A stretch of 64,000 nt of DNA from Verrucomicrobiota bacterium. Lineage in GTDB: Bacteria > Verrucomicrobiota > Verrucomicrobiia > Chthoniobacterales > Terrimicrobiaceae. The notes under the pieces were generated by a model. The model was given only the letters and a program-made list of their open reading frames with translations. It searched no databases and was not told the DNA's origin. Numbering within the stretch: position 1 is the first letter of the stretch; each line of letters begins with the position of its first letter. Location of the stretch: positions 1 to 64,000 of the forward strand of contig JAPLTF010000070.1 of assembly GCA_026398275.1 (NCBI GenBank). The letters run 5' to 3'. The position numbers and the translations under genes were made by a program. Positions 346-17,854 of the stretch are shown here, in pieces.

Positions 346-1248
346 ATGATCAAAACAAAAACATCAATGCTTGCGCTGGTCACGCTCGCGACTGTGGCTC
401 TCTCCACAGGCGCCAATGCGGCCACCAACGGGAATCTGGTTCTCGCGTTCCAGAACCCCGGCGGAACAACCGGCGCCACTTCAACACTGCTTCTCGATTT
501 GGGAAGTCCCGCGACGCTCCGCGACGCGACCGGCTTCGTGAATCTTGGAACATTCTCGAACATCAGTGCCAACTTCGGCAGCACATGGTATGACGCCACG
601 ACCCTCAACGTGTCGGCTGTCTCGACATGGCGCGAAAGCACCACCAGCACCGCGCTGTTAAACAGGGATCCTTCGCTCACGCTTTACGTCTCACGTGCGC
701 GCACTTCTGCCGGGACAGCCGGGTCCGCAAGCTCAGCCTCGCTGGTTTCAAGCCAGACAGGGGTCTCGACTGCGGGTTCAAACATCTCACAGACCATCAA
801 AACCAACTCGTCCACCTACTTCGCCGGCAGCTCAGTCGTTGGCAACACCTCCGTTGCTGCGTCCGGAACTGGCGGCCAATACTTGGTGAACTATAATCCG
901 ACATCCGGGCAGTTGACCGCTTACAATGCGTTTGACGGCAGCCTGCAGCAGGCATTCACCTCAGGATCACTGTTCAACTTCGGAACTGTCGGCAATGTTG
1001 AGGCAGCCTTGGACATCTACCGGGTGCAATTCAACAACAACATTGCAACCCAATACGGATTCGGTGCAGACCTTTATACAGGTCAATTCATCGGAACGAT
1101 CACCCTCGCAAAAAATGCGGGCGATTCCTCTCTGACGGACATCGGCTTCACCGCCGCTGTTCCCGAGCCGTCCACCTATGGCCTGCTTGGAATCGCAGCT
1201 GCAGTGCTCGGCTTCGCAGCCGCACGTCGACGCAACGCGGCTGCTTAA
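346..1248 (+). CDS. PEP-CTERM sorting-domain surface protein
   Basis: The product is a 300-residue exported protein. It has a signal peptide (MIKTKTSMLALVTLATVALS, cleavage near TGANA-AT), a Ser/Thr/Ala/Asn-rich low-complexity middle with few charged residues, and a C-terminal PEP-CTERM tail. The tail is VPEPSTYG, a hydrophobic helix (LLGIAAAVLGFA) and a basic end (ARRRN). In known families this tail is recognised and removed by an exosortase in the inner membrane, and the protein goes to the surface or the extracellular matrix. No exosortase gene is in the window. An upstream ATG at 160 is in frame, but it would run through the conserved 180-229 element and lacks a signal peptide, so I start at 346. 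The next gene follows after 50 bases with no terminator, suggesting co-transcription. Confidence 0.9.
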   Translation: MIKTKTSMLALVTLATVALSTGANAATNGNLVLAFQNPGGTTGATSTLLLDLGSPATLRDATGFVNLGTFSNISANFGSTWYDATTLNVSAVSTWRESTTSTALLNRDPSLTLYVSRARTSAGTAGSASSASLVSSQTGVSTAGSNISQTIKTNSSTYFAGSSVVGNTSVAASGTGGQYLVNYNPTSGQLTAYNAFDGSLQQAFTSGSLFNFGTVGNVEAALDIYRVQFNNNIATQYGFGADLYTGQFIGTITLAKNAGDSSLTDIGFTAAVPEPSTYGLLGIAAAVLGFAAARRRNAAA

Positions 1249-1298: not shown

Positions 1299-2642
1299 AT
1301 GAAAATTAGAACACTCACCCTCGCGGTTCTTGTGGCGGCGGCTTCGGCTCAGTCGGGCCATGCCGATCAGGAAATTCTTATCACTGGAGCAACTGCCTTC
1401 CGAAAGGCCTCGATTGATGCTATCGTGGCGTTGTTTGACTCCGTTCAGGTTAACGCTCTTGCCAACTCGTATAACTACGCCACAAGCGCCAACGGAGTAG
1501 GCACCAACGTTGTCAACGCAGCGGGAGCCTCGACCTTCAAGGGGACTTTTCCCGGCATCACTGGCGTAACAACCATCCGTTGTTCGTGGAACGGCTCTGT
1601 AGAAGGCATTCGTGCCCTTGTCAGCCCCGGCGCCACCTACAATGCAAAGTATATTCAGGATGCGGGGATTGTGGGGGCCGGGGCCAACTACAGCAAGTCG
1701 GCCACAACTCAGCAAGCTGCTGACTTCGCGTTTTCAGACGTGCTTCAAAGCTCGACGCCGGAACTGACTCCCACTTTGAATGGTGGGTCGGTTGGCGTCG
1801 TGATCTTTTCGCTGCTGGCCAATAAGGGAAGCACCCTGTCGAGCATCACGACAAACCAGTTCAAGGATCTGTTCGGCAATGGATACACGAAGAAGTCGCT
1901 GCTCACGGGAAACAGCACCGACACAACACGTGTGTATGCAATCGGCCGCAACGATGGCTCTGGCACCCGCACAACCTACTTGTCATCAACCGGCCTCGGC
2001 GTGACAAGCAAGGTCAAACAATATGCCGCAACGACCACCGCCAATGGAACGTTTTCTGCCATACAGCTTATTCCTGATTCTGGAACGGGCGTTAATAGCG
2101 ACGGCAACGTCATCGTCAATGGAACACCTGTCACCGACTTCAAATCCACAATTTGGGGTAATGATTTCGTTGGTAATGGTGGATACCAGAGCGGCGGCAC
2201 GCTTGGCGGCGTCATGCAGATGACCTCGAGCGGCAACGTCACAGTGAAAGATGAGTATGGCGATGCGGTTCCTGCCCTCTCCGGCGGCAGCGTGGACCTG
2301 GTGACATTTATGGCGGCCGGCGACATCGCAGCCAACGTAGCCAATGTCAAAGTGCTTGCCTTCAATGGCGTTACCGTGACCCCTCAATCCAGCGGAGCTG
2401 TTGTCAGTTCCACCGACAAGGCGAAGGTCACCTCGGGAGCCTATGAAGCATGGGGTACAGAAAACCTCTACTATCGCGGAACCATTGGCACAGTTACGGG
2501 TGGATATAAGACATTCTACGATGCTCTGAAACTCAAACTTGCGGATTCCACCATCGTGGACGCATCCGGCGTCACCTTGGGTGAAATGAACGTGGCACGC
2601 ACGCCGACAGACGGTGGCATTATCGGCCCGAAAACCCGCTAA
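1299..2642 (+). CDS. Secreted PstS-like substrate-binding-fold protein
   Basis: The 447-residue protein has a signal peptide (MKIRTLTLAVLVAAASAQSG, cleavage near GHA-DQ). The mature start, ILITGATAFRKASIDAI, and the later stretch RNDGSGTRTTYLSSTGLG resemble periplasmic phosphate-binding (PstS-type) domains, where a DGSGT segment helps bind the oxyanion. An LFGNGYTKKS segment before it also fits that fold. There is no PEP-CTERM tail, lipobox or membrane anchor. No pstCAB transporter genes lie nearby, so a role as a surface or matrix phosphate-binding or structural protein is more likely than classical uptake. Its position 50 bases behind the PEP-CTERM gene suggests one transcript under the 180-229 element. 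Two stem-loops follow the stop. Confidence 0.65.
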   Translation: MKIRTLTLAVLVAAASAQSGHADQEILITGATAFRKASIDAIVALFDSVQVNALANSYNYATSANGVGTNVVNAAGASTFKGTFPGITGVTTIRCSWNGSVEGIRALVSPGATYNAKYIQDAGIVGAGANYSKSATTQQAADFAFSDVLQSSTPELTPTLNGGSVGVVIFSLLANKGSTLSSITTNQFKDLFGNGYTKKSLLTGNSTDTTRVYAIGRNDGSGTRTTYLSSTGLGVTSKVKQYAATTTANGTFSAIQLIPDSGTGVNSDGNVIVNGTPVTDFKSTIWGNDFVGNGGYQSGGTLGGVMQMTSSGNVTVKDEYGDAVPALSGGSVDLVTFMAAGDIAANVANVKVLAFNGVTVTPQSSGAVVSSTDKAKVTSGAYEAWGTENLYYRGTIGTVTGGYKTFYDALKLKLADSTIVDASGVTLGEMNVARTPTDGGIIGPKTR

Positions 2643-2742: not shown

Positions 2743-3465
2743 ATGGAAAAACAAATTCTTATCCCATTCCTGATCCTGGGATTTGTTGGTTTAGGGGTCT
2801 CTGCTTGGAGCCGGATATCCGGGCAAGTTTCCTCCCACCACGATGGCGCAACCAGCGCAACAAAGTCATTCAACGGCACACGAACCGAAACCAATTTCAG
2901 GCACGCACAAAACTCACAAGTCGTGCCCCCGCCCGCTCTTCAATCCAGCCTCAGTGCATCGCAGTCTGCTACTCCCCCTCCTGCCCCCGCTTTCTTCCCC
3001 CTTTCCAGTTCCCCTACAGCTCGCACTCAATCCAGCGGATTTGCAGCCTCATCCGAGCCGACAATACTAGGACCGCTCACAACGAACAGCTCGCCGGCCG
3101 GCATCAGCGCCACGCATGCGTCCAGGGCCAGTGCATTGTCAACGATCCCCGCCATCCCGGCTTCCGCTCCCACTCTGCAGCTCGACCTCGAGGACGGCGT
3201 TCCACTCCCAATAGCTGCTCTTCCCTCAAACACCCCAGTCACGCCGGCTGTGGCACAGAGCACAGAAAGCATTGCCGATAAATTTCAGAAGGAAGTGCAG
3301 GACGCGCTGGCCAGCCCGTCTGCCAGCGACCAAACGGTCTCAGAGGCCTACTGGGATGCTCAGGAACGTGCCGATCAAAACTACTGGGTCCTCTACGGCG
3401 ACACGGCATATAACCAGCAAAAAATCAATGCGCAGCTGGAAGCCTTGGGCTTGACCGGACGGTAG
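2743..3465 (+). CDS. Hypothetical membrane-anchored, Pro/Ser/Ala-rich protein
   Basis: The 240-residue protein has an N-terminal hydrophobic helix (ILIPFLILGFVGLGVSAW, about residues 5-22) acting as an uncleaved anchor or signal. A long linker (about 25-160) rich in Pro, Ser, Ala and Thr follows. The C-terminal part is more ordered and charged (SIADKFQKEVQDALASPSAS, then YWDAQERADQNYWVLYGDTA). I do not recognise a family. A membrane helix, a flexible stalk and a small tail domain fit an envelope-spanning adaptor. It sits between the PEP-CTERM/PstS-like pair and, convergently, the STT3-like gene (stops 22 bases apart). Confidence 0.6.
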   Translation: MEKQILIPFLILGFVGLGVSAWSRISGQVSSHHDGATSATKSFNGTRTETNFRHAQNSQVVPPPALQSSLSASQSATPPPAPAFFPLSSSPTARTQSSGFAASSEPTILGPLTTNSSPAGISATHASRASALSTIPAIPASAPTLQLDLEDGVPLPIAALPSNTPVTPAVAQSTESIADKFQKEVQDALASPSASDQTVSEAYWDAQERADQNYWVLYGDTAYNQQKINAQLEALGLTGR

Positions 3466-3487
3466 CGGAATTCCTTTCGGAAGGTGG

Positions 3488-5749
3488 TTAGTGCGCAGCT
3501 TCTTCAGCTCTTTTTGTCTCGGCAGTTGAGAGGAGCGCCGCGATTTGCGGATCTGCTGGCGCATTATTCTGTGCCTGCTTCAGCTTGTCTGCCGCGCGAT
3601 CGTAGTCTCCGGCCTCCAGAAAATAGATTCCAGTGTTGAGCAACGCGTCGTGCGGCGATTGATCCGGCAGGACGGCAAAGATTCGCACCTTCTGATCGCC
3701 AAGTCCAAAAACCGTTGGGATGGGATAGAAAAGCGGGCGCAACCAATCGGGGCACTCATTCCCTTCGATGAGGTCAGCCAAAAAGGGTTTGGCGGCTGTC
3801 GGAGGGACCTTTCCTGACATTTTCAGCAGCCGGACATAGGCCTCGCCAAAGTCGTCCCACGAGGCGATCACAATATGGGTGATCCCCGCTTTCAGAAGGA
3901 GCTGCTTGGCCTCGTCAGGGCTCGTGGCGGCAAAGATTCGTGCAGCGCGCTCGAGCCCGGGGAGATTTTCCCAATATAAAGTTCCCAAGGTTCGAATCCC
4001 TCCATAGTAGCTGAGATCCGTCGAAGAATTCACCCCGGAAAGCACAACTGGCAGCCGGTCGGGATTGGCCTGGATGAGTTGGTGCGCAATATCCCGAAGG
4101 AGAATTGTTGGGGCCAGATCCTTTGGAAGATTGTCTGCCAATCTTCCCCGGCCGAGAAAAGCCATCGCAGATCTCAGGGGGAACACTATGACTGCCAGAA
4201 AAGCAATGATCAGGAGCAGCCAGCGCAAAGGGGCGGGAATCCGCCCCGGATAACCTCCGGAGGAATGCACCACAAGAACCATCACCGCGCAGACCAACCA
4301 GATCCCAAGCGCTATCGATGCCCAGCGGATCTGGAGCAGGGCAAGACACTCCATCAGGGCAGCGGGGAAAATCGGGAAGAGCAGCAGAACACAATTTTTG
4401 CGGGGAATCTTAGACAAAAAAACGAGCGAAAGTGTCCCGAGCACAACGAAAGCCGGCCAAAGAAAGGAATCGAGAAGGATGACAGCCGAACCGGAACCAG
4501 CAAGCGACTTCCACAAGCCTTGAAACTCCTGAATGTATTCCACGTGCAGCGAGAGCAAAAACTGGTCGGACACCCAGAAGAACAGGTCGCGTCTCAGAAC
4601 CACCAGGAGCGGCGGGGCCAGGACAAACGCGGTGGCTAGTAAGGATATTCTCCACTCTTTCGCACTGGAGGGCAGCCATTCCTCGCCGCGAATGCCCCGA
4701 ATCGCCCTGGCAATCAGTTCCCCCGCGCCCAACCACGCGAGAGCGTAAAGTGGATGGTTGACCTCCAGCCGCCAGCCGAGGTGGTCCGGAAAATATTCAA
4801 GTAGATAAAAAAACAAACACCCGATGCCTCCTGAGAATCCCCAAAGGCGCCACAGCTCGGGATGAGGGGAAACCTTACTCTCCCCTCCGTTCCGCCCGAT
4901 CCAAGCAGCCGCCAACGCTCCGAAACCGCACCCAATAAGGATCGGCACGAAAGTGGCAGCGCTCACCCATAGCGCGGCCGCCCCCAGAATGCCTGAGAGC
5001 ACGAACCATTTCCGGGCAGCAGACAAGGCTGGAAAAAGTTCAAGAGAAGCGGGGTTTTGCGTGCGCCGTTTGGCCGAGGGCAGCACAAAACCCGCCCCTC
5101 CACAGCAAATAGACAAAACACTCCCCATCGCAAACGCGAGCACAATGCCGTGATGGTCGCACTCCGCGAAACGAAATGATTGGCAGACAAAGCAGCAGGT
5201 CGCCAGGGCAATGCCGAAAAAGACCGCGAACCGGAATCCAAAGCGTTTTGCAACCATCCATCCCAAGCCGGCAATCGCGCAGGCGTAGAGGATCGGGCAC
5301 GCGTAGAAGGCCGCCTCAGGAAGGGTGTCTAAAACGCCCTTGCCGGTAATAGAACCGATAAGGCTGCTCAGGGCCGCAAGGACCCACATCAGCAGCGAAC
5401 TCCAGTGGACCTCGCGCCCATCCGGGGCATTGTCACGATCTGTCGTCCGTATCCGCAGGCTGCCCTGCTTGATCATCTCGGTCGTATGAATGATCCACCA
5501 TCGAGCATCCGCGGACGTCGCGGGAAGGATAGTCCACCTCTCTTGGGCACCGGGTGAAACTCGGACGGCATGAGCAGGGATTTCGCTGGTCTTGACCGCC
5601 GTTGCGGCGCGAATGAGGGAGAGGCGGAACAGCGAGTCGCACCAGAATGAGGACGCGGCAAGAATCACGCCAAGAACAAGGCAAAGAGCGCCCTTCCGGG
5701 AAAACAACAACGAGGGTCGCGAATCTCGCGAGTTTTCTCTTTTCTTCAT
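3488..5749 (-). CDS. STT3-like membrane glycosyltransferase with C-terminal TPR
   Basis: The 753-residue protein has a hydrophobic N-terminal half with many membrane segments. Three features match the oligosaccharyltransferase STT3/AglB/PglB superfamily: an acidic segment after the first helix (SADARWWIIHTTEM, about 79-92), PDGREVHWSSLL (about 109-120), resembling the family's PDG..HW segment, and CDHHGIVLAF (about 197-206), resembling its DHH motif. In that family these residues bind the metal and the lipid-linked sugar. The large C-terminal domain is soluble, and the last 50 residues (ALLNTGIYFLEAGDYDRAAD onward) look like a TPR. No WWDYG motif is obvious. The gene is next to the giant exoprotein, on the same strand and 102 bases downstream of it. 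Glycosylation of surface proteins is an inference; another GT-C enzyme is possible. Confidence 0.6.
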   Translation of the reverse strand: MKKRENSRDSRPSLLFSRKGALCLVLGVILAASSFWCDSLFRLSLIRAATAVKTSEIPAHAVRVSPGAQERWTILPATSADARWWIIHTTEMIKQGSLRIRTTDRDNAPDGREVHWSSLLMWVLAALSSLIGSITGKGVLDTLPEAAFYACPILYACAIAGLGWMVAKRFGFRFAVFFGIALATCCFVCQSFRFAECDHHGIVLAFAMGSVLSICCGGAGFVLPSAKRRTQNPASLELFPALSAARKWFVLSGILGAAALWVSAATFVPILIGCGFGALAAAWIGRNGGESKVSPHPELWRLWGFSGGIGCLFFYLLEYFPDHLGWRLEVNHPLYALAWLGAGELIARAIRGIRGEEWLPSSAKEWRISLLATAFVLAPPLLVVLRRDLFFWVSDQFLLSLHVEYIQEFQGLWKSLAGSGSAVILLDSFLWPAFVVLGTLSLVFLSKIPRKNCVLLLFPIFPAALMECLALLQIRWASIALGIWLVCAVMVLVVHSSGGYPGRIPAPLRWLLLIIAFLAVIVFPLRSAMAFLGRGRLADNLPKDLAPTILLRDIAHQLIQANPDRLPVVLSGVNSSTDLSYYGGIRTLGTLYWENLPGLERAARIFAATSPDEAKQLLLKAGITHIVIASWDDFGEAYVRLLKMSGKVPPTAAKPFLADLIEGNECPDWLRPLFYPIPTVFGLGDQKVRIFAVLPDQSPHDALLNTGIYFLEAGDYDRAADKLKQAQNNAPADPQIAALLSTAETKRAEEAAH

Positions 5750-5851
5750 TTGCCAAAAATCCAGATGTCAACAGAAGGAACGCACAACTTTACCGTCGGC
5801 GTCACAGAGCGGAACTCAGTGTCCGCGCATGAGATTCCCACCCTCCCTGAG

Positions 5852-8800
5852 TCACCCTTCATCGCTGTCACCGCCGCCATACCCTAACACCTCCACGGTG
5901 ATGATGGAGGGCGCATCTTCTGCGGGTTGGGCATTCTGCCTGGCTTGGTCCGCCACATTGCTGGCAGCGCTGTTCGCAGCGCTGTTGGCGGCGGCCCCGG
6001 AGGTCAGGCCGGCGACATTCGGGGCCGAGACAGTTGGGGTCGTGGGAACTCCGGCAGCGGTTCCCCCGGCGGAAATATTGCTGGCATTTAGCACTGCGGC
6101 AGCGGCGATTGCGAGGTTTCCGGTCGCCTGGATCCCGGCATCTCCGGCATCCACAGTTCCCACGGGGGCCACAAGCGCTACGTCTCCCGGCGCAATTCCC
6201 TCGACGGAGGCCAGAACGCCAATTCCACCGCCAGTGGCCAGGCCTCCGAGGTCCGTCGCGATGTCGGCGCTGGTCGAATCGATCAAGACCCGTGTCGGGG
6301 GAGCCGTTACCACCGTTTTTGGCGAGGTTCCCGCTGCAATATCTCCGGTCGATGACCAGATCGTGATGTCTCCGCCCCGAAGAGTGAAGATTCGCGCCCG
6401 GCCGATGTCCACGCTGCCGTTGGTGAAAATGGAGATGGCACCTCCGTATTCCGTAACCACCCCTGGAGGTGTGAGCGGATTTCCAAAAATGTCGGAGGCA
6501 AGGGTGAGGCCGCCATTTGGAGCCGCCATGGAGATCGCGCCGCCATTGGTCGTTCGAATGTCGCGGGCCCGGGTGAAGATCTCCCCGGTCCGGTCCGTAG
6601 CTCCGAACAGGGCTTCAATGGCCGCAAACCCATTCGCATAACTTTGTGTTGTGGCATAATCAAGGCCGGTTTGTTTTAGAGTCTCAAAGAAGGTGTCCAG
6701 TTCAGTGATAGCCCCTGCCTCGACCGCGCCAACACCTTGCCCGCCTGTCCCGGAACCGGGCAGACTCGCAAAGACAAGATCGCTGTCCACCATCCCCAAA
6801 GCCGCCCCGCCTGACTTTCCACCCACTCCGGCAAATACGAGAAGGCGGGCTCCATCGAATGGCAGGAACGGGTTTTTCGCATTTCCAATCGAGGTGATTC
6901 CGGTTCCCGTTCCGTTGGAGAAGTTTTCTCCGGTACCGAGATCTACGTTGCGACCGGCCAGGACTTCAGCCGCGCCGCCACCGCCGATCTGTATGTCCCC
7001 CGGCAGGATGCTCACCTGGCGCCCGAGCACCGTCTGCTGGGTCGGATCAACGACGATGTTGCCAAGAGCAATATTCGAGGCGAGGGCCCGAAGAGGGGCA
7101 TTCGCATTGTAGGGAAGCACATCGCGTCCAGCCGAAACAATCGACACGCTCTGGGAGTTGACATTCTGGATATAGAACGAAACATCCGTGATATCCTGAA
7201 ATGCGGAGATTTGAGCAGCCTTCGAAGAGTAGAGGGTGAGGCCTGTGATGTCTCCGCTGCCCGCATAAATTCGGACCGGGTTGAGATCCCCTGAATGAAT
7301 CGGGGTTGTTGCATGCCTGGCGCGGATGATGTCGATTCCTGCATCTGAGCCCGAGAATGAACCGGACTCCGTAAAGACCTGGTCGAAGTTGGCAAATACG
7401 GCCTTGCTGGTTTTATTAAGTTCGTCGATCGAGGGGGTGACGCCGTAATAGCCGAGCGGAGATGTCACGCCATAAATCGACGCGGGATCGGCATCAGACA
7501 GGTTGATCATTCCCGTTGACCAGGCCTTGAGGTCGCCTGAGGCATTGTTGCGAGTCAGTCCGGTTGGCTGAAGGCCGATCACGCCTCCTGACGCGGCTAG
7601 CTCAATTGTCCCTGTCGCAGACGGGAACAAATTCATCTTCCCAACGATATTCAGATCGCCGGAGAATGATGAACTTCGCAATATCGGGGGTGCGACACTC
7701 GTTGCCGTCGCAAAAGCAGTGACATCGGTCTCAGCCAGACGTGCCCAGGGCTGCCAATATGTTGAACGGTTTTGACTGTTGATATCATAGCTATTCTGTT
7801 TGTTCATCCACGCTATGAGGACGGGAGTGGCGGCGGACTCGTAAGGAAGAGTCTCGGCCAGTCGGTGAGTGATGCTGCCACCGACAGATGTGACATTCAC
7901 GCTTGAGTCAGACGAATAGGTGTTGAAGTAGGTCTTATACCAGAATTTATTATTCAACCCCTGCGGCATCAGGAAGGCATTGACAACCGGTCCCAAGACA
8001 ACATCCGACCTGGCGGAGACATCAAATGCCCCCTTGCCCAAATAGAGAGTCGTCGGCAACCATGTGGACGGATCATAAACTTCCGGATTTCGACTTTGGA
8101 TGATCGAATCGGCCTCGCTTGGAAGCGAAGAGGCGCTCAAAATTCCGAATGATGGCGAACGGGCGGCATTAGTGGTGACAGAGCCTCCTGCTGAAAGGAC
8201 GCCATGGCCCCCTTCCACATAATAGACGCCACCGTCAATATTGTTTCCGGCTTTGACCAAAACATCGCCGCCGCCATACTCCAGCAATTTGGAGGAGTCC
8301 GGAGCGATGTTGTTGACCCCGTCCGTCCCGGGCATCCTCGCGTTGGTGGGAGCCACCGCATCCGCATTCACGATATCATGCCCCGCGACCAGCGCAATAT
8401 TCCCGCCCCCGAGGGTGCCGAAGCCTTCGAAGAAATTGCTGAAGTCGATCCACCACGCTGTCGAGGCAGCCGTATCGGTGACGAAGCCTTCAGCTGTCGT
8501 GATCACGCCGGCGGCGCCGGTTCCAGGATCGTCGTAGCCGCGACGGTAGAGCCAGTTGCCGGGGAGTTGGTGGGAGGAATCAACGATTAGATTTCCGGAA
8601 CCATCTTGCGTATAGCGTCCGATGTTCCGACCCGCCGAAATCTGAACATTCCCGCCTGCCAGCGACCATTGCGCAATATACCTCTGCTGAACAGCGCCGA
8701 GCGATCCTTGGTCGGGGTGGAAATTCGGATTCACCGAAACGACCGGGGTCACGAAGTCCCCGGCGGAGTAGATCTTGGTGGGTGTGGGAATTCTCACACC

Positions 8801-11800
8801 CGCAGTGTAAATGCTCGCAAACTGGTTCCGGAGCTGGACATCGCGCCCGGCGTTGATTTCAATATCTCCGGTGCCCGTGCGGATGACCTGGTAGCGGGTG
8901 CCTGTGTTTGCACCTGTCGTGGAGACGCGGATGGAGTTCGCGGTCAGGCCGTCAGGCCCAAGAGCGACGCCCGCCCCAGAAGTGGCGCTGTTCGGGATTG
9001 CCTGATAGAAGCGCCCCAGCAAGACGGAACCTTTGTCGGCGGCAAGCTTATCAGGACGCAACACCGAATGGAAATCCACCGCACTAAGATCCGAGCCGGC
9101 GGCGATTCGGTAGGACCACGACTGGGCATTTGCAGGAAGTGTCTCGTTAAGCCCCATGAGCTGGGCCAGCCACATGGAGGAGTTGCCATTGGTGCTGGTG
9201 GGGTTCACTGCGGTGAAGCCGTCACTTAAAGTATTCCAGAAGACAATATTTCCGGAGGCCCTGAGCGTCAGCACGCCCGCAGCCGCTTTCGGCCCGAAGC
9301 GGAAGTCTCCCAGGTTCCAGTCGGAGCTCCAGATGGTCGAGGAGCTTCCGAGGCTGATGTCACCGTTTGGCGTTGTGTTGCTAATTTCCGCACCCGGCGC
9401 AATCACCAGCAATGAGGAAAGACCATTGGGATCCCCAGCACCCAAGAGCGCATCCTTCATGGCGGTGTATCCGGCGGTGGTGGTGCCTGCGGTCCCCAGG
9501 AACTGCACGCCATTGTCATAGACCAGCCGCTGTGTGGTGCCCGCCGCCAGGCTTGTTCCCGGCAGCCCATTGAATGTCGATCTCGTTCCGGTGATCTGGC
9601 CCGTGGCCCCGGAGACATTAAAGATTTTGTAGCCCTCGACCAAAATGCTCGACGCACCGATGATTTCGTCACGAAGTTCGCTGACGGCGACACCTAGGCC
9701 CGATCCTGTGGTTCGCTGTGGAGCCCTCAGATGGAGAGTCCCGGCGAATTGCCCGTTGAAGGCGCTCGAACCGGGCGTCGCATAATCACCAGCAACAAAA
9801 GAACCAACCGACAGATCGATCACGGAATCCATTTTGATATCCAGCAGCGCCGTGGGGCTCACGACTCCATTAGTGGCTGAGCCGGCTTCAATGCTGATCG
9901 ATCCGCCTTTCCCGGCATTGTCAAAGACCTCGCCATGTGCATCAAGTTTGGAGTTTGCCTCGAGAGTAATGCTTTCATGGGCGATCAGGTTGATTTCGCC
10001 TCCCGTTTTCCCATGAGCATCAATCGTCCCCACCACGTCAATCGATCCGGTGTCGGTGGAAAGAGTGAATCTTCTGGAAACATTGATTCCCGAAACCGTC
10101 ACGTCACCGGTCCGGATTCGCAGATTTCTCTCTTCCGTGAAGCCGCCAACGTCCAGCTGGGAAGCGAGATCGTCGAAAGAGGTCAGGCTTCCCGCATCCA
10201 GCAAAAAGGCGCCGCCATTCCCTGCAACTCCGGCGGCCGTCGGCGCTTTTCCGAGAAGAGTTCCCAGCGACTCAAACGGCCCCTGTGAATAGATTGCCAG
10301 CGTGCCCGCGCTGCCGCCGCCCGCCGCCGCAGACACGGAGACGAGGCTGTCCGCCTGCAGCGACACCCGTCCTGAGCCCGCAGAAATATTGACGATCCCC
10401 GCATCGGCGTAACGGGTCAGGTCATAGAAGGTTTGCGAATAGCCGCTGACATCAATTTGACCGCCCACCGCCACGTCTCCGGTCAAAGCCGTCAGGCTGA
10501 CAAGACCGGAGGGCAGAACGATCCTGGAGTCCGCAGTGATTGATGTGCCGCTCATGGCCAGGGTGGCCCCGAGTCCGCTCGCCACGGTGGCCTGACCGCT
10601 CGAGGCCAACATGTTCAAGGCACCGTCCGCCACGAGAGAATAGTTCGAGCCGGCTGCGCCTGCGATAAGCGGCGCGGTGATATTCAGATCACCTGCGCTC
10701 GCAAATGTTCCAACACCCTCGGTGAGAGCTCCCCCGGTTGTGACAAGATTGACCGCGGCGTATCCGGCGATCCCGAATCGATTTACTCCGAAGCGAACCG
10801 TTCCTGCCTGAACACGAAACTCGCCGGAAAGCGGACCCGCTGGCGCGGTCAAGCCGACGGCGGCGGAAGGATTTTCAAACGCCACGGAATCCGCCACGAA
10901 CAAAGCCGTCCCTGTTCCCTGATTGAAACCACGGATTCCAAATTCGGAAGCGGAGGTGAGCGGGTCGTCCCCTCCGGCACGGAACGTGAGATGGCGCAGC
11001 AACGTCGATCCAAAGTTGCCCGCCCCGTAAATATCGATCGACCGATAACTCCCGATGGTCAGCTGTTCCGCACTCTGAGCCTGGGCAAGCAGCGTTCCTG
11101 ACAGAACAAGCTGGGGAGTCACAGCGGCCCCGGGAAGCGCTCCGGCCTGGGGCTGGAGAAGGATGCTGACCTGCCCGCTGTTGAGGGTCAAAGCGGTTGC
11201 CTTGATGCCGGCCGAAGGATCAAAATCCGAGCCGTAAGAGGAATCCGCTATCACGCCGGTTCCCGAGATCTTGGCGCCGGCCCCGATTGTCAGGCGGGGG
11301 GCCGTCGAGCTGGTCACCCCGGTTCGAGTAGATGCAATACCGGAGCTTCCGCTAACCCAAAGCAAAGCGCCATCTCCAATGATGGAGAGCGGCGAGGCGC
11401 TTGCGGAAAGCGCACCGGAAGATTCGACGCTCGAACCCGCGTCCGCTGTCACAAATTGCCTGGCGGCAAGAAGGATTTCTGGACCCGAGAACGAGGAGCC
11501 CGCATTGGAAACCGTCACGCTGTTCGATCTCACATCCAGCGAAGTTCCCGTCGCGGTGCTCCTTCGCAAGCCGCCAATCAGCAGGCTCTCGATACCCCAG
11601 GACTTGAGAACACCCTCATTCAAGACGACCGTCGCACCCGAAGGAGCCGAACCGGAACCGCCGATGACATACATATCGGAGGCACTGCTCACATCTGCCG
11701 AGGCTCCCCGCCCGGTGCTCGCCGCAGCCGCCAGGACATTTCCGTAGAGTCGAAGACCGGCATTGCCCTGAATGGCAAGGTAGCCAGCATCAGCCGGCAG

Positions 11801-14800
11801 ACGCTGCGTGGAGTTTTGATTTGCCCGCTGTGCGGCCTCCGGCATGAAGCTGTTCGCGCTAAAAATATCGTAAGAAGAGCGGGCGCTGACGACGTTGGGA
11901 GGAGCGACTTCAAACAGGGATCTTGTCGCGGGCGTTTGAATAGTCGGATTGTAGGAATTCAAGCGATAGCCAGTCGTGTAGCTTGCTCCCTCCGCTGTGG
12001 TATGCTCCCCATTCGCAGAATTGGATTTTGGCGTGATCATGTAGGCACCCGGCAGCAGGGCATAGCGTTTCGGAAGCAGGGTATAGTAACCCGCCGACAG
12101 GCCGGGTGTGCCGTTCAGATAAATGCGATCACCGACACTGAGTGAGGAACTGACATAACCTGGCTCACCGCCCAAATCTCCCGCATTGGCACCGGTGTTG
12201 AACGCTCCATAAGGAGAGTAGTTGAATCCATAACCAGGAAGAACGGCATAGGACTTCGGCACCTCGCTCCAATACAAACCAATCGTTGGAACCGGGGAGG
12301 ACCCGAGTGCGATTGGGTCGATCGAAACCCGGGCGGACCATGTTTTTCCACCATAAGAGACAAGATCCGCAGCACTGTATTTGGTCGAGGCATTCCACAC
12401 GGAACCGGCCTCGCCAAAAAGATCGCGGCTGCCGCCCGTTCCAGCAACCCACCGGTAGGCCAGCAGGTCTCCGCCGCCCCGCAGATCCACAAGGGATCCT
12501 GCCTCTGTGGTGACATTGTTGGCTCCGATGGCGATCCGTTTAGCAGTCAGCCCCGAAAGCGTGATGTTCACACCGCTTGGATCGATCCAGGAAAGTCCAT
12601 CCGGACTTAAACCAAAAGGAACGATAATCTCCTGGCCGGTGGAGGGATCGACACCCGAAACGGACGTTGTGCTTCCGGAGGTGAGAACGACAGTTTGGGT
12701 TGTGGGGACCGTTTGCGTGCTGCCGGCCACGGCGTCAATGGGCCGGTCAAATGCGGGGGTGGAGGGAATAAAGTCGGTTCCGTCCCAGCCGAGCACGATG
12801 GAACCAAAGGGTGCGCGCAAGTTGCCGGCTTGGGTGATATTTGAGGCAAAGATTCGAATCGTTCCGGCGGCTGAGAATGGCAGCGGCCGGTTGCCCGCAG
12901 CGATGATCTTCACCGAGCCTTGTTGGGCAATTCCACCCGCTGTGTAGTCATAAGCAAAGATATCGAACGTTCCCAAAGTCGTTGGGTAAACCTGACCTGC
13001 ACGAAGAATAATATTGCCGGCCACACTGACCACGCCATTCCCCCGGATATCCCCTCCGATGGCATTCAATTCCAGTTTTCCGGTGTTTTGGAGAACCAGT
13101 GTTCCCAGATCAATCAACTGCGCATTCAGGGTCACGGAGCCTGCGCCATAGGTCGGCTTTGGATGGTAGGCGCTGGAACCATCTGGCCCGGGGGGATTTT
13201 GTTCGAAGGGGATGAATTGATCAGAAGGGTTAAGCGGCGGTCGGAATGCCTGACCGATGGCAATGTAGGGCGCACTCAAACTCACCGCGGCGTCGGAGAC
13301 GATCACCCCTCCACCGGCTACGCGCAGGGCACCCCGGGCATTGATCGTGATTGGGCCTTGGAACTGGACGTTTCCTCCATAAGGGACATCGCCGGAGGTG
13401 GTGTATTTGTAGCCAAGGTCGAGGGAGTCAAATCCTCCCGCACGAAAACTCGCCAAAGAAAAAAATCCCTGGCCGGAAATGATTCCGCCGCCCGAGTTCA
13501 ACACCGGTATGCCGACTCCCGGAGCGGAATTGTTCGAAGCGATAACCTGCCCGCTTTGGGTCACAGTGAGATTGATGTCCGCCCCGGTTTTTTGTGCCCC
13601 GGATGGGTAGAAACGCCCGGAAGACACAGCCAGCAAACCACCCGTCGCCGTGGGTCCGCCAGCAAAGCCAAGAAGCGTGGCATCGGAGAGGAGCATTTGT
13701 GAGCCCTCCAGAGAGATCGTTCCCCCGTTGCTGTCCACCTTTGTTGCAACGCCTCGCATCGCCCAGGGCTTTTGATTCAGGCCACTTCTGGCAGAAGGGG
13801 TGGCGGCGCTATCAGTTGCGGCAAGAACCGGGTCCAGATCCAGAATGCCGCTGGTCCCTGAAACATCGAGAACAGCACCTTTATCCGCGAGGATATTTCC
13901 CGACACCAGAATGGTCCCCCCGGAATAAACATTCCCCTGTCTCCGACCATATGGGTCCGGAGTAAGAACCGTTGTTCCTGTAGCCAGCAATTGGGAGTCC
14001 GGACCAAGAAAGACAGTCGGCAGGGCATTTGTAGCGGAGTCCTTGAGCAGCTTCGGAAGCCGGAATTCGCTTTTTCCTGCAACCGTAATTTTTCCTGCCG
14101 GGGCGATAATGGATCCCAGAACGGTGACAGTATCTCCACTGAGATTCACGCTTCCCAAGGGGTCCGTAATGATACTGGCTCCCTTTTCAACAATCACATC
14201 GCCACGCACCTCCAACACATCTTCTGTAAAGGAATCGTCAGCCCCAATTCCTTTGAGAGTGAGGCTTGCCGGTTGCCTCAAACCCTGCGGACTTAGGGTG
14301 GGATACAGATGGAATCCGTCGCCGGATTGCTGATACGAGGCCACCACCAACTGCTCGGCCACCGGCGCAACAACCGTCCCAGCCACGATCCGCACGGCCG
14401 GAATGTATTCTCCCGGTGTTTTCGAGGCTTTGCCGATGCCTGTCAGACTATAACTCGTAAAGCCGCCGCGCCTGAAAAACTTCGGTTGAAAAACCAAGGT
14501 GCTTGGATCGGTGGAAGAGCCTCCGATCTGGATCAGATTGGCTTGAATGGCGAGTTTTCCGCCTGTCGTTGCGGAGTAGGCCGAGAGCGATCCACCAAGC
14601 GTCAAGTCCCCACCGATGGTTGTCGCGAGAACCGGATCCTTCCCGGCAAGAAGAGAGATGCTGCCTCCTGTGCCATAGATGTATCCACCCAGCGGCTTCG
14701 CCCGGGCACCTCCGGAGGCATCAATCCGGCTGTGTTGTTCCAAGCTCACCGTGTAACCCTCAAGTGTCACGCTTCCGCCATTCAAAGAACGGGTCATATC

Positions 14801-17800
14801 GAAAGGTTGGGCTGCGGTCGAGCGCTCATCGATCAGCATGCCGGAGACGTCAAGCTGCTTCCCTTGAGCAAGGGATATGACGCCCCTTCCCGCCACGGGA
14901 AGCGGAGCGGCCACTCCCGAAAGACCTCCTGTTGCATTCAATTCGGCATAGAGAAAAGGGGAGTAGTTGTAGGCGGTGAAACTCAAGAATCCTCCCGGCG
15001 CCAACACATCTCCCCGGACAAAGACATTGGCGGCCCTCACGATGAGTCCGCCCCCGGCCGGGGTCAGAATCCGGGTTCCGGGAGCCACCACGACATCACC
15101 GTCCCGGTTGTCTATCGTCACCACGCCGAATCCCCCTGCGCCCGCCTCGTAAATCGAGGTTCCGATCGAAAAAGTTGTCCGCAGATCCGCAGGAAGCGCA
15201 TCTGCCGACCCATACGCGATGCTGAATTCCGGCGCGGACACCTGGGCTTTTCCTGAAACAAAATTGACCGTAGGTGCGTAGGGGGAGGCGTCCACGATCT
15301 GGAAGGGTGTCCCCGCGATTCCCAGTCGTTTTTCCGCGAGGAATGAGATCGAGAGCGAAGAAGATGCAGCCGGGGAATCGAGTTGGCGGGGGCCAGTGAT
15401 TGTTTGACCCACCAGATCACCTGCAATCACGAGGCTCGGAGCAATCAGGCTGATGCTTCCCCCGGCTGCTCCTGTGATAAACTCGCCGCTATTGTAGGCG
15501 CCGAGCGGCGCGAGCGCAGCCTGATACAGATTTGTGATGCCCCATTTTGTCGAACTGGCTGTCGAAGTGCCTTGGTAAGTGGAATTGTAAACCATATCCG
15601 GAGTGGCCTTGGCAATATCGACCAGGTTCCCGCCCCGGAGAACGCGCGATGTCAGGATCCTTCCGGCCTCATTCCGGAAGTAACCGCCGGAAACATCCAA
15701 CGTGGCCCCGTTTTGAACGATAATGCTCCCGCCACTTTGAATGCTCAACCTGCCGCCCTGGGCCGTGAGCTGGGCAACATTTCGCTGGATGATCGCAGCC
15801 GCTCCTGTCAGATCACCCAGCGGCGTGCCAACCCAATAAAATCCGTTATATGTCCCGTTTTTTCGGATATCAACAACAAGAGGTTGGCCGCGGAGAATGG
15901 AAGATCTCTGTAGCGGGGAGTCCGCCAGTTCGGATCCGCGGAGTTGCACCGTCAGAATGCTCTGAGCCATCGGCACGAAGACCGCTGTGCTCCCGCTGAT
16001 ATCCAGCAACGACCCGGAATCAAAATACGTTTGGCCTCCGGTAAAAGCAAAACGTTGTGAGGAGCCGCTAATGCTGCTGGCAAGCTCTGGCTCGGCGGTG
16101 GTGCCGTCAGCAAGAAAAATCGTCCTGTTGTCGTCGACGTCTTTGTAGGGCCAGATGCCAGCACGGAAGTTCACGTTGGCGTTTGGCGCCAGGAGGACGG
16201 ATCCATTTTGCATGTGGATCGTAAAGCCTTCGACATTTACCCGGGAGTTCTCCGGAAGACTGGTTCCTGGAATGGTTTTCGGGCTGGAATAGTCCGGCAA
16301 AATGCGCGTTACGCTTCCCGGACCGAAATTGACGGTTCCGGTGAATTGCGAAAGAAACGGGGGCCCGCCTCCGCCGGTCGCCGCAGCGTTGTCAAAATTT
16401 GGATTTGCGACAGCCCCGTAACTTGCGATGAGATCGATGCGGCCGTTCAGGCTGACCGAGGTGGAGCTTTCCACAATTCCCGACTGGTTGATTTCCTTGC
16501 CGGCGAGAATGGTGCTCCCTGTCAACGACTCGATGTATCCTTTGTTGGTGACAGAGCCGCCATAGGCGCCGACATTTCCCACCCAGACATCCAGACCTCT
16601 GAGGCTTGGATCGCTTTGAGCGTGTGCACGAATCCCCAGTTGGAGCCCGGCGGCCAATATCGTCTGCCCGCTCGGCGTGGAAATCGTTCCTTCATTTTCC
16701 ACGTTGGCACCGACCAAAATCACCCTTCCCCCATTGCCATCCGCGCTAACCGGTCCGGAAATCATGGCTCCCTTCTGCACGACGATATTCCCGACTTTTC
16801 CATCCGGGGTAAGCGGGGCATCGGGAACAAAAGCCGACGTTCCATCTGCCCCTCCCGAAATGGGAAGCGCGGAGAACAAAAATTGCGCATCCTTGTTGTT
16901 GAGAAGCCCGCTGGAGATCAGGTTCAGGTTAATAGGGAGCGAGGAGGCAACGAGCGTGCGAGTGTTCACCTGGCTGCTGCCGCCGAAGATGATGCCGTTC
17001 TGGTTGATGACGTAGACTTGGCCGTCGGCGTTGATTTTTCCGAGGATTTTTGAGGGGACGCCGCTGGGATCGAAGACCTTGTTGAAGGCGATCCATTTGC
17101 CGGAGTCGTTGCCGCCGGCGCTCTGGTCGAAGTTGAGGGTCGTGTTCTTTCCGACGTTGAAGGTTTTCCAGTCGAGGAGGGCCTGGGATTTGAGCTGTTT
17201 GATGTTGACGATGCCGCCGGACTGGGTGGGGGCATTGGCGCCGGTCCATTTGCCGCCGGGAAGGCGTTCGAGTCCTCCGGTAACGAGTCCGTCCGGGACG
17301 GTGAGGGCGGATCCCGCCGCGCGGGCGGACGACTGCATCTGCCGCATGTCGTTGATGGCCTTGGTCGTTCGGGCGAGGCGGTCGGCGGCTTTGATTCTGG
17401 CGATTTCGGCGGCCTGGGCTCCCGCATTGGCCCGGGCGTCGGCGGCCATGCGCCCGTTGGCGGATGTTGCTCCGCCCCGCAGGATGTCCCCGGCTTGGGC
17501 GGTGGGAACCAGGTAGGCAAAAAAGAGCAAAACCAGCGCGATAGCGCTTTGTAGAAAGGGACACAGTCGGATGTTTGGCCCAGGGAACCAGGCGGCGAGG
17601 GGAGCCGCTCGGAAAATCAGCGCGATAGCGCATCCGTGATAGGGGAAGCTCGAGTGTTTTGGCTGGGGAGCCAACACTGCCGGAGGTAGCCCGCAGGGTG
17701 AGACACGCGGGAGCGTGCGAGGCATCGCAACCAGAGCGAAGCGGAGCAAGGATGAAGGATGGGCGAGCAACGCTCCGCCTTTTGCGCCGCGACGCACCCT

Positions 17801-17854
17801 GCCTTGGGAGGCTTGTCGGGCGGAGGAATTTTGGTCGGTCCGAGGCATGGGCAA
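5852..17854 (-). CDS. Giant filamentous haemagglutinin-type exoprotein (TPS domain)
   Basis: This is an uninterrupted 4000-codon frame. A hydrophobic signal segment ending AYLVPTAQA lies near residues 101-121. It precedes a haemagglutination-activity/TPS domain (about 175-330) with the hallmark NQNGIIFGGSSQVNTRTLVA near 281-300. The rest is Gly/Ser/Ala/Thr-rich sequence with short hydrophobic beta strands, as in right-handed beta-helix adhesins. A module near 1818-1865 (STKYSAADLVSYGGKTWSA, ending YWSEVP) resembles small chitin-binding CBM5/12 domains. The C-terminus is SIITVEVLGYGGGDSDEG, with no autotransporter barrel. TPS proteins are normally exported by a TpsB/FhaC porin, which is absent here. 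The true start is uncertain: residues 1-100 are unusual, and GTG (17677) or ATG (17725) are alternatives. The conserved 50-bp element lies just upstream. Confidence 0.88.
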   Translation of the reverse strand: MPMPRTDQNSSARQASQGRVRRGAKGGALLAHPSSLLRFALVAMPRTLPRVSPCGLPPAVLAPQPKHSSFPYHGCAIALIFRAAPLAAWFPGPNIRLCPFLQSAIALVLLFFAYLVPTAQAGDILRGGATSANGRMAADARANAGAQAAEIARIKAADRLARTTKAINDMRQMQSSARAAGSALTVPDGLVTGGLERLPGGKWTGANAPTQSGGIVNIKQLKSQALLDWKTFNVGKNTTLNFDQSAGGNDSGKWIAFNKVFDPSGVPSKILGKINADGQVYVINQNGIIFGGSSQVNTRTLVASSLPINLNLISSGLLNNKDAQFLFSALPISGGADGTSAFVPDAPLTPDGKVGNIVVQKGAMISGPVSADGNGGRVILVGANVENEGTISTPSGQTILAAGLQLGIRAHAQSDPSLRGLDVWVGNVGAYGGSVTNKGYIESLTGSTILAGKEINQSGIVESSTSVSLNGRIDLIASYGAVANPNFDNAAATGGGGPPFLSQFTGTVNFGPGSVTRILPDYSSPKTIPGTSLPENSRVNVEGFTIHMQNGSVLLAPNANVNFRAGIWPYKDVDDNRTIFLADGTTAEPELASSISGSSQRFAFTGGQTYFDSGSLLDISGSTAVFVPMAQSILTVQLRGSELADSPLQRSSILRGQPLVVDIRKNGTYNGFYWVGTPLGDLTGAAAIIQRNVAQLTAQGGRLSIQSGGSIIVQNGATLDVSGGYFRNEAGRILTSRVLRGGNLVDIAKATPDMVYNSTYQGTSTASSTKWGITNLYQAALAPLGAYNSGEFITGAAGGSISLIAPSLVIAGDLVGQTITGPRQLDSPAASSSLSISFLAEKRLGIAGTPFQIVDASPYAPTVNFVSGKAQVSAPEFSIAYGSADALPADLRTTFSIGTSIYEAGAGGFGVVTIDNRDGDVVVAPGTRILTPAGGGLIVRAANVFVRGDVLAPGGFLSFTAYNYSPFLYAELNATGGLSGVAAPLPVAGRGVISLAQGKQLDVSGMLIDERSTAAQPFDMTRSLNGGSVTLEGYTVSLEQHSRIDASGGARAKPLGGYIYGTGGSISLLAGKDPVLATTIGGDLTLGGSLSAYSATTGGKLAIQANLIQIGGSSTDPSTLVFQPKFFRRGGFTSYSLTGIGKASKTPGEYIPAVRIVAGTVVAPVAEQLVVASYQQSGDGFHLYPTLSPQGLRQPASLTLKGIGADDSFTEDVLEVRGDVIVEKGASIITDPLGSVNLSGDTVTVLGSIIAPAGKITVAGKSEFRLPKLLKDSATNALPTVFLGPDSQLLATGTTVLTPDPYGRRQGNVYSGGTILVSGNILADKGAVLDVSGTSGILDLDPVLAATDSAATPSARSGLNQKPWAMRGVATKVDSNGGTISLEGSQMLLSDATLLGFAGGPTATGGLLAVSSGRFYPSGAQKTGADINLTVTQSGQVIASNNSAPGVGIPVLNSGGGIISGQGFFSLASFRAGGFDSLDLGYKYTTSGDVPYGGNVQFQGPITINARGALRVAGGGVIVSDAAVSLSAPYIAIGQAFRPPLNPSDQFIPFEQNPPGPDGSSAYHPKPTYGAGSVTLNAQLIDLGTLVLQNTGKLELNAIGGDIRGNGVVSVAGNIILRAGQVYPTTLGTFDIFAYDYTAGGIAQQGSVKIIAAGNRPLPFSAAGTIRIFASNITQAGNLRAPFGSIVLGWDGTDFIPSTPAFDRPIDAVAGSTQTVPTTQTVVLTSGSTTSVSGVDPSTGQEIIVPFGLSPDGLSWIDPSGVNITLSGLTAKRIAIGANNVTTEAGSLVDLRGGGDLLAYRWVAGTGGSRDLFGEAGSVWNASTKYSAADLVSYGGKTWSARVSIDPIALGSSPVPTIGLYWSEVPKSYAVLPGYGFNYSPYGAFNTGANAGDLGGEPGYVSSSLSVGDRIYLNGTPGLSAGYYTLLPKRYALLPGAYMITPKSNSANGEHTTAEGASYTTGYRLNSYNPTIQTPATRSLFEVAPPNVVSARSSYDIFSANSFMPEAAQRANQNSTQRLPADAGYLAIQGNAGLRLYGNVLAAAASTGRGASADVSSASDMYVIGGSGSAPSGATVVLNEGVLKSWGIESLLIGGLRRSTATGTSLDVRSNSVTVSNAGSSFSGPEILLAARQFVTADAGSSVESSGALSASASPLSIIGDGALLWVSGSSGIASTRTGVTSSTAPRLTIGAGAKISGTGVIADSSYGSDFDPSAGIKATALTLNSGQVSILLQPQAGALPGAAVTPQLVLSGTLLAQAQSAEQLTIGSYRSIDIYGAGNFGSTLLRHLTFRAGGDDPLTSASEFGIRGFNQGTGTALFVADSVAFENPSAAVGLTAPAGPLSGEFRVQAGTVRFGVNRFGIAGYAAVNLVTTGGALTEGVGTFASAGDLNITAPLIAGAAGSNYSLVADGALNMLASSGQATVASGLGATLAMSGTSITADSRIVLPSGLVSLTALTGDVAVGGQIDVSGYSQTFYDLTRYADAGIVNISAGSGRVSLQADSLVSVSAAAGGGSAGTLAIYSQGPFESLGTLLGKAPTAAGVAGNGGAFLLDAGSLTSFDDLASQLDVGGFTEERNLRIRTGDVTVSGINVSRRFTLSTDTGSIDVVGTIDAHGKTGGEINLIAHESITLEANSKLDAHGEVFDNAGKGGSISIEAGSATNGVVSPTALLDIKMDSVIDLSVGSFVAGDYATPGSSAFNGQFAGTLHLRAPQRTTGSGLGVAVSELRDEIIGASSILVEGYKIFNVSGATGQITGTRSTFNGLPGTSLAAGTTQRLVYDNGVQFLGTAGTTTAGYTAMKDALLGAGDPNGLSSLLVIAPGAEISNTTPNGDISLGSSSTIWSSDWNLGDFRFGPKAAAGVLTLRASGNIVFWNTLSDGFTAVNPTSTNGNSSMWLAQLMGLNETLPANAQSWSYRIAAGSDLSAVDFHSVLRPDKLAADKGSVLLGRFYQAIPNSATSGAGVALGPDGLTANSIRVSTTGANTGTRYQVIRTGTGDIEINAGRDVQLRNQFASIYTAGVRIPTPTKIYSAGDFVTPVVSVNPNFHPDQGSLGAVQQRYIAQWSLAGGNVQISAGRNIGRYTQDGSGNLIVDSSHQLPGNWLYRRGYDDPGTGAAGVITTAEGFVTDTAASTAWWIDFSNFFEGFGTLGGGNIALVAGHDIVNADAVAPTNARMPGTDGVNNIAPDSSKLLEYGGGDVLVKAGNNIDGGVYYVEGGHGVLSAGGSVTTNAARSPSFGILSASSLPSEADSIIQSRNPEVYDPSTWLPTTLYLGKGAFDVSARSDVVLGPVVNAFLMPQGLNNKFWYKTYFNTYSSDSSVNVTSVGGSITHRLAETLPYESAATPVLIAWMNKQNSYDINSQNRSTYWQPWARLAETDVTAFATATSVAPPILRSSSFSGDLNIVGKMNLFPSATGTIELAASGGVIGLQPTGLTRNNASGDLKAWSTGMINLSDADPASIYGVTSPLGYYGVTPSIDELNKTSKAVFANFDQVFTESGSFSGSDAGIDIIRARHATTPIHSGDLNPVRIYAGSGDITGLTLYSSKAAQISAFQDITDVSFYIQNVNSQSVSIVSAGRDVLPYNANAPLRALASNIALGNIVVDPTQQTVLGRQVSILPGDIQIGGGGAAEVLAGRNVDLGTGENFSNGTGTGITSIGNAKNPFLPFDGARLLVFAGVGGKSGGAALGMVDSDLVFASLPGSGTGGQGVGAVEAGAITELDTFFETLKQTGLDYATTQSYANGFAAIEALFGATDRTGEIFTRARDIRTTNGGAISMAAPNGGLTLASDIFGNPLTPPGVVTEYGGAISIFTNGSVDIGRARIFTLRGGDITIWSSTGDIAAGTSPKTVVTAPPTRVLIDSTSADIATDLGGLATGGGIGVLASVEGIAPGDVALVAPVGTVDAGDAGIQATGNLAIAAAAVLNASNISAGGTAAGVPTTPTVSAPNVAGLTSGAAANSAANSAASNVADQARQNAQPAEDAPSIITVEVLGYGGGDSDEG
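17527..17674 (-). repeat. Diverged 84-bp-spaced duplication at the exoprotein signal region
   Basis: Two segments, 17527-17590 and 17611-17674, resemble each other. Both contain CAGCGCGATAGCGC (17534-17547 and 17618-17631, exactly 84 bases apart) and related flanks that read in protein as CAIALI and SAIALVL, each preceded by a Pro-containing stretch. The spacing is a multiple of three, so the exoprotein frame stays open. This suggests that the region coding for the signal peptide was duplicated in tandem and that the upstream copy is now extra 5' sequence. Confidence 0.55.

Follow-up and report, generated by a model that had tools for sequence, protein, structure and literature searches.

The window (the whole stretch of 64,000 nucleotides analysed here) carries on its minus strand an intact open reading frame at 3488..5749, located on contig 96 of the 4.66-Mb assembly G000, which starts with ATG, contains no internal stops and encodes a multi-span membrane protein of 753 amino acids that carries a DHH motif and ends in a short TPR tail. 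The initial annotation had called it an STT3-like glycosyltransferase with a TPR tail, pointing to the segments PDGREVHWSSLL (residues 109–120) and CDHHGIVLAF (residues 197–206); both are present and fall inside blocks conserved among 27 homologues. The gene was also said to follow a giant exoprotein on the same strand, as it does, with 102 bases between the exoprotein end and the ATG; the exoprotein matches the Pfam models TPS (3.2e-15) and DUF3739 (2.8e-27). The PEP-CTERM gene named as a neighbour is nearby but not directly adjacent, since two plus-strand genes (1299–2642 and 2743–3465) intervene. The features of the locus are:

3488..5749, minus strand: predicted STT3-like GT-C membrane glycosyltransferase, 753 aa, with a C-terminal soluble domain and a short TPR tail (ORF, alignment, TIGR04154, hhalign)
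5507..5509, minus strand: codon of D81, matched by motif order to Asp47 of A. fulgidus AglB, the first metal ligand (EL1), and invariant in 27/27; the D81–Asp47 match was made by eye, just outside the hhalign alignment
5402..5434, minus strand: EL1 block DNAPDGREVHW, residues 106–116 (conservation; aligns with EL1 of L134, an AglB-like protein)
5147..5158, minus strand: DHHG, residues 198–201, putative second metal-binding motif (Asp-His-His in AglB, PMC8342417), 27/27, with DHH aligned to DHH
4526..4537, minus strand: YIQE, residues 405–408, TIXE counterpart on EL5 (E408; E in 27/27, I in 25/27)
4322..4333, minus strand: QIRW, residues 473–476, counterpart of the EL6 Arg (R475), with Q, R and W in 27/27, aligned with QERF of L134
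4022..4036, minus strand: GVNSS, residues 572–576, at the WWDYG position by alignment; family consensus [GS]PN[ST][ST]
3965..3976, minus strand: YWEN, residues 592–595, family-specific invariant motif (27/27) in the soluble domain
3527..3652, minus strand: TPR tail, residues 700–741 (Pfam matches, Foldseek)
5852..17854, minus strand: giant TPS exoprotein of the TpsA type (TPS domain plus DUF3739), 4000 aa, true start codon uncertain, probable partner or substrate
2743..3465, plus strand: exported protein of small size (240 aa) that is found repeatedly in exoprotein cassettes, at the c5 position (locus comparison)
1299..2642, plus strand: PstS-like protein, exported, 447 aa, also found repeatedly in exoprotein cassettes (weak TIGR04505 match, 0.0017)
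346..1248 (approximate), plus strand: PEP-CTERM surface protein of the cassette (PF07589, 2.7e-6)

In the window protein itself the TPR signal consists of one weak repeat (TPR_16, residues 700–734, E 0.0072), while TPR families are matched at E<=1 by up to 20 of the 27 homologues (TPR_19 by 20). In the averaged hydropathy profile about 10 to 11 peaks are seen from residue 21 to residue 524, with no further peak beyond, to be compared with the 13 helices expected of an oligosaccharyltransferase. AlphaFold modelling from a three-row alignment (the window protein, L031 and L032) was unusable, with a mean pLDDT of 38.5; the C-terminal 220 residues alone reached a mean pLDDT of 50.0, confident in the TPR part only, and the 50 matches listed by Foldseek for this C-terminal model were mostly TPR proteins, none of them at E<=0.001.

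Catalytic and acceptor-side residues of the family

Conservation was read from an alignment (A1) of 27 proteins, the window protein included, whose other members are 26–44% identical to it; of the 44 family matches listed, fragments, split pieces and near copies were left out, and others for size (e.g. G035:C4). Invariant in all 27 are D81, R101, D106, P109, G111, R112, H115 and W116, the tetrad D198-H199-H200-G201, E408, Q473, R475, W476 and the YWEN motif at 592–595.

These positions can be set beside two described active sites. The metal ligands of A. fulgidus AglB are Asp47, Asp161 and His163 (Asp-His-His), and Glu360 of the TIXE motif is described as acting through waters (PMC8342417); in PglB the active-site residues are given as D56, R147, D154, D156, E319 and R375 (PMC6801728). 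The metal ligands expected of STT3, AglB and PglB enzymes, an Asp in EL1 and an Asp plus His or Asp in EL2, are found as D81, D198 and H200 in 27/27 sequences. The Glu of TIXE/SVSE on EL5 corresponds to the invariant E408, with Ile kept at position 406 in 25/27 and the Thr not retained, and the EL6 Arg (R375 of PglB) to R475, again in every sequence. The EL2 Arg of PglB (R147), seven residues before the EL2 Asp, has no equivalent, as position 191 is not Arg in any of the 27 proteins (S/T/G and others).

The acceptor side is different. WWDYG, which in AglB binds the sequon Ser/Thr together with DK/MI (PMC8342417), is absent from all 27 proteins: residues 572–576 contain no W, D or Y and mostly read [GS]-P-N-[ST]-[ST]. 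The register of these residues at the WWDYG position was set by the hhalign alignment with L134 and by the match of L134 to AglB. Judging from the alignment, the donor-side chemistry looks intact and the acceptor-side motif exchanged. Because the catalytic residues are kept but WWDYG is lost, we label the protein STT3-like and not a canonical oligosaccharyltransferase.

A further block, EYFP...R.E.NHP.Y, spans residues 318–335 of the protein encoded at 3488–5749 (minus strand) and is invariant in 27/27; a likeness to the NHPL segment of c6, a membrane protein described below, was noted by eye. We know of no STT3 counterpart of this block.

Kinship with STT3/AglB and distribution in the phylum

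Profile searches point to a distant relationship. The archaeal STT3 model TIGR04154 (archaeo_STT3) is matched at E<=1 by 25 of the 27 homologues, the best at 2.4e-9 and still far under the curated cut-off; the window protein alone scores E 0.012 and 14 bits, where the curated cut-off is 450. PF02516 gave no match for the window protein at E<=1 in the Pfam scan and is matched by 2/27 family members; a paralogue on another contig of the same assembly (G000:C65) passes its cut-off, with 24.9 against 24.5 bits. As a PDB search with the full alignment was swamped by TPR proteins, it was rerun without the TPRs, and the top two matches of the TPR-free profile were then AglB C-terminal domains, 3vu0 (E 0.032) and 3vgp (E 0.16), not significant alone. 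The entry 3vu0 is one we take to be AglB, in agreement with the PDB search for L134.

The strongest link runs through L134, which comes from the same phylum and is of an AglB-like kind rare there (TIGR04154 at 2.7e-86; AglB structure 3waj at 1.3e-14). An hhalign comparison of the 27-row profile with L134 gave E 2.5e-5 over 494 collinear columns and paired the EL1 block with EL1, DHH with DHH, the EL5 Glu region with VESQPL and QIRW with QERF, as well as VLSGVNSST with VLASWPYGH and EAKQLLLKAGITHIV with EAAMAMLRAYGVRYVV. With -M 50 the score was 49.15, against a maximum of 25.5 and at most 99 columns in 150 shuffles. The score depends on the setting: with -M first it was 33.0, where the highest of 40 shuffles reached 30.0, and a third setting, run without shuffles, gave 32.7. 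The 494 columns were aligned under all three settings, while shuffles gave at most 105. The 12-row clade profile alone (the clade is defined below) matched L134 weakly (E 0.0021, 105 columns), the match to the PglB-like L135, which carries WSWWDNG, was also weak (E 0.015, 150 columns), and the controls L136, c6 and cytochrome b gave E 0.40–0.49. The family is thus remotely but credibly related to STT3/AglB; the kinship to oligosaccharyltransferases first proposed from the two segments gains support from the TIGR04154 family matches, the PF02516 match on C65 and the L134 alignment.

With AglB, STT3 and PglB (GT66; PF02516, TIGR04154) the family shares the order of motifs, the EL1 Asp, the DHH, the EL5 Glu, the EL6 Arg and a soluble C-terminal domain with an EEA...GV.hIV segment. 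It differs from them by carrying [GS]PN[ST][ST] in place of WWDYG with the invariant YWEN beyond, by the additional EYFP...R.E.NHP.Y block (318–335) and TPR tail, and by the scores of the window protein, which lie under the curated PF02516 and TIGR04154 cut-offs. Other GT-C enzymes also act on proteins, such as the O-mannosyltransferases TMTC1-4 (GT105) and the C-mannosyltransferases DPY19 (GT98). TMTCs are described as having TPRs in a long C-terminal domain and a proposed 11 membrane helices (PMC6801728). The family shares with them C-terminal TPRs behind a GT-C membrane part (TPR_19 in 20/27 at E<=1). Unlike TMTC and DPY19, the window protein has the STT3 model as its sole GT-C match and a DHH/TIXE-like pair of the AglB type, and no TMTC/PMT family model appears among the eight Pfam families listed for it.

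Classical oligosaccharyltransferases are rare in this phylum, as initially presumed: PF02516 is matched at E<=1e-6 in 3/288 genomes, and one of the matched proteins, L136, looks like another GT-C family. The STT3-like family is commoner, with matches at E<=1e-10 in 27/288 genomes; no relative was found in the viral contigs scanned. L134 (646–2736) has SWPYG in place of WWDYG, and L135 (91–2238) is likewise rare in the phylum. Bacterial STT3 homologues have been placed within a euryarchaeal clade (PMC4973528). One locus (L042, 5385–10690) holds two diverged STT3-like paralogues in tandem with a 4-base overlap.

Conserved linkage to the exoprotein and its cassette

A tree of 35 rows (34 family members and L134 as outgroup) places the window protein in a 12-row clade with support 98/98. 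Upstream sequence is available for ten clade rows, and in all ten the next gene upstream is that of the exoprotein, on the same strand; L038 and L131, the remaining two, stop at a contig end. The adjacency is found in none of the 20 testable rows outside the clade; of the 22 rows there, L048 lies at a contig end and was not counted, and L034_12949 was counted separately, being a second paralogue that shares a cassette with the window-type gene of L034 but does not adjoin the exoprotein. For L016, L018, L020, L021, L022 and L026, whose flanking sequence was short, the call of no exoprotein is based on the contig places of DUF3739. The tree does not include a decayed copy in G015 (L041) or the pieces in G001, which are adjacent to DUF3739 on C115. 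Ten loci from outside the order (L139–L148) show no exoprotein within their short flanks. The spacing of the exoprotein and enzyme genes varies: they overlap by 4 bases in L037, lie 6 bases apart in L035, L040 and L130 and 102 apart in the window, and reach the maximum of 263 in L036.

The proposed link to a surface system, for which a conserved neighbourhood was the suggested test, is therefore upheld, with the exoprotein linkage maintained over deep divergence (10/10 against 0/20). Since the adjacency belongs to a conserved gene cassette, the STT3-like enzyme is probably dedicated to the exoprotein as its sugar-attaching partner. The exoprotein does not depend on the enzyme, because the exoprotein domain occurs in 30/58 genomes, many of them without an STT3-like gene alongside; G006 has the exoprotein cassette but lacks the enzyme, and G009 and G012, which belong to the same genus, have both. 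Such enzyme-less cassettes, and the one decayed copy, would also suit a bystander carried in a conserved operon, for instance a chaperone-like membrane protein that transfers no sugar; a complete catalytic residue set left unchanged at 26–44% identity makes this highly improbable.

Two observations concern the exoprotein itself. At L041 (8410–11325, G015:C2) the decayed STT3-like copy is convergent with exoprotein fragments, and the pair was seemingly lost together there. On C1 of the window's own assembly (G000:C1, L107) a second giant DUF3739 exoprotein (2804–14356) stands beside a ShlB-type TpsB (14856–16574), the only one found in G000; no such gene turned up close to the exoprotein of the window, and that exoprotein may be served in trans by the TpsB on C1.

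The remaining cassette comprises the PEP-CTERM protein, the PstS-like exported protein, the small exported protein and often a Sel1-repeat protein; Spartobacteria bacterium LR76 (L032) is among the carriers of the cassette. Genes of the PstS-like and small exported proteins (1299–2642 and 2743–3465) recur next to TPS exoproteins across many genomes, whether the STT3-like gene is there or not. The same holds for the PEP-CTERM gene (e.g. L117), which is therefore no particular companion of the enzyme; its proximity, originally offered as a sign of the enzyme's role, follows the exoprotein cassette instead, and we discarded it as an enzyme-specific linkage.

In four clade members a further membrane protein, c6, comes directly after the STT3-like gene (L036 11325–12791, L035 1115–2509, L037 17940–19586 and L038 2338–3864), with WFDE and NHPL segments. 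It occurs in 4/58 genomes, the same four, solely in that position, and has no Pfam or NCBIfam match; from WFDE...NHPL, read by eye, it looks like a second GT-C enzyme. A second clade of the STT3-like family, about 30% identical (L033 on G000:C65, L044, L045, L047, L048, L052 and L133), adjoins GT2 genes, not the exoprotein, and may make another surface glycan. Both c6 and the GT2 neighbours would fit a GT-C enzyme engaged in the synthesis of a cell-surface polysaccharide or lipid-linked glycan, and not in protein modification, its adjacency to the exoprotein reflecting a shared surface function. We consider this unlikely for the window protein, whose clade is tied to the exoprotein and which keeps the STT3-type soluble domain with TPRs added.

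Acceptor and proposed role

To address the acceptor, sequons were counted in 9 exoproteins linked to the enzyme (with L103 and L104 taken from close relatives) and 20 unlinked ones, after duplicates and shorter pieces had been dropped. N-X-S/T was observed 249 times against 255.6 expected in the linked set and 686 against 617.9 in the unlinked set, the reverse of what sequon selection would give. No amino acid differed in composition at p<0.05 between the two sets, and richness in Asn, Ser and Thr is common to exoproteins without such an enzyme. The Ser/Thr/Asn richness first taken as a pointer to glycosylation is thus not peculiar to enzyme-linked exoproteins, and N-X-S/T richness was likewise dropped as support, there being no enrichment in linked exoproteins.

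A true oligosaccharyltransferase N-glycosylating N-X-S/T sequons of the exoprotein would need a Ser/Thr pocket built differently. The invariant catalytic set and the collinearity with the AglB-like L134 agree with such an enzyme, as does a slight excess of [DE]-X-N-X-S/T in linked exoproteins (28 against 19.7 expected, z 1.7, n=9; 42 against 45.3 in the unlinked, n=20), owed mostly to the window and L040. Against it stand the replacement of WWDYG in 27/27, from which N-X-S/T sequons are probably not recognised, and the sequon counts. We therefore judge this explanation quite improbable, and the original notion, taken as an N-glycosylating oligosaccharyltransferase as such, is not supported.

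The explanation that we favour, with somewhat better than even confidence, is a periplasm-facing, lipid-sugar-dependent STT3-like GT-C glycosyltransferase dedicated to the exoprotein system and acting on a non-sequon acceptor. Mechanistically, the active site would face the periplasm, with a divalent metal bound by D81, D198 and H200 and with E408 and R475 in the roles that the EL5 Glu and EL6 Arg have in AglB and PglB; homology and conservation suggest that a sugar would be moved from a polyprenyl-phosphate carrier. From the linkage, the modified protein would be the exoprotein, or else one of the other exported proteins of the cassette, and modification would take place between Sec export and secretion through TpsB; the TPR tail may serve as a docking site that helps to keep the acceptor in place. 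The exoprotein is, by linkage, the most likely acceptor; otherwise it would be a cassette partner or a non-protein glycolipid.

In function the closest known system is HMW1 two-partner secretion, whose third partner, HMW1C, is a glycosyltransferase encoded by a gene dedicated to a TpsA exoprotein; HMW1C is described as cytoplasmic, using UDP-linked sugars on Asn (PMC3983070). Here too a glycosyltransferase gene is tied to tpsA, in 10/10 testable clade members; the window enzyme differs in being a membrane GT-C protein, not a soluble cytoplasmic one, that would act in the periplasm, and the HMW1C family is absent among its Pfam and NCBIfam matches. In the literature on oligosaccharyltransferases of Verrucomicrobia/Spartobacteria, PEP-CTERM/exosortase glycosylation and TPS/hemagglutinin, the titles and abstract openings, with few subscription papers covered, do not describe an STT3–TPS link.

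A bolder version, which we put forward tentatively and hold to be possible but short of probable, is that the sequon pocket has been rebuilt, with [GS]PN[ST][ST] and the invariant YWEN, and that the enzyme is a periplasmic third partner of two-partner secretion adding a lipid-carried glycan to the exoprotein or its cassette partners at a non-N-X-S/T acceptor, that is, a new class of protein glycosyltransferase. If true, two-partner secretion would gain a third partner that resides in the membrane and uses lipid-linked sugar, next to the known cytoplasmic HMW1C that acts on Asn. The family would also offer naturally occurring STT3-like enzymes that retain the catalytic core but have exchanged the acceptor pocket, so that acceptor choice in the STT3-like group could be tested by comparison.
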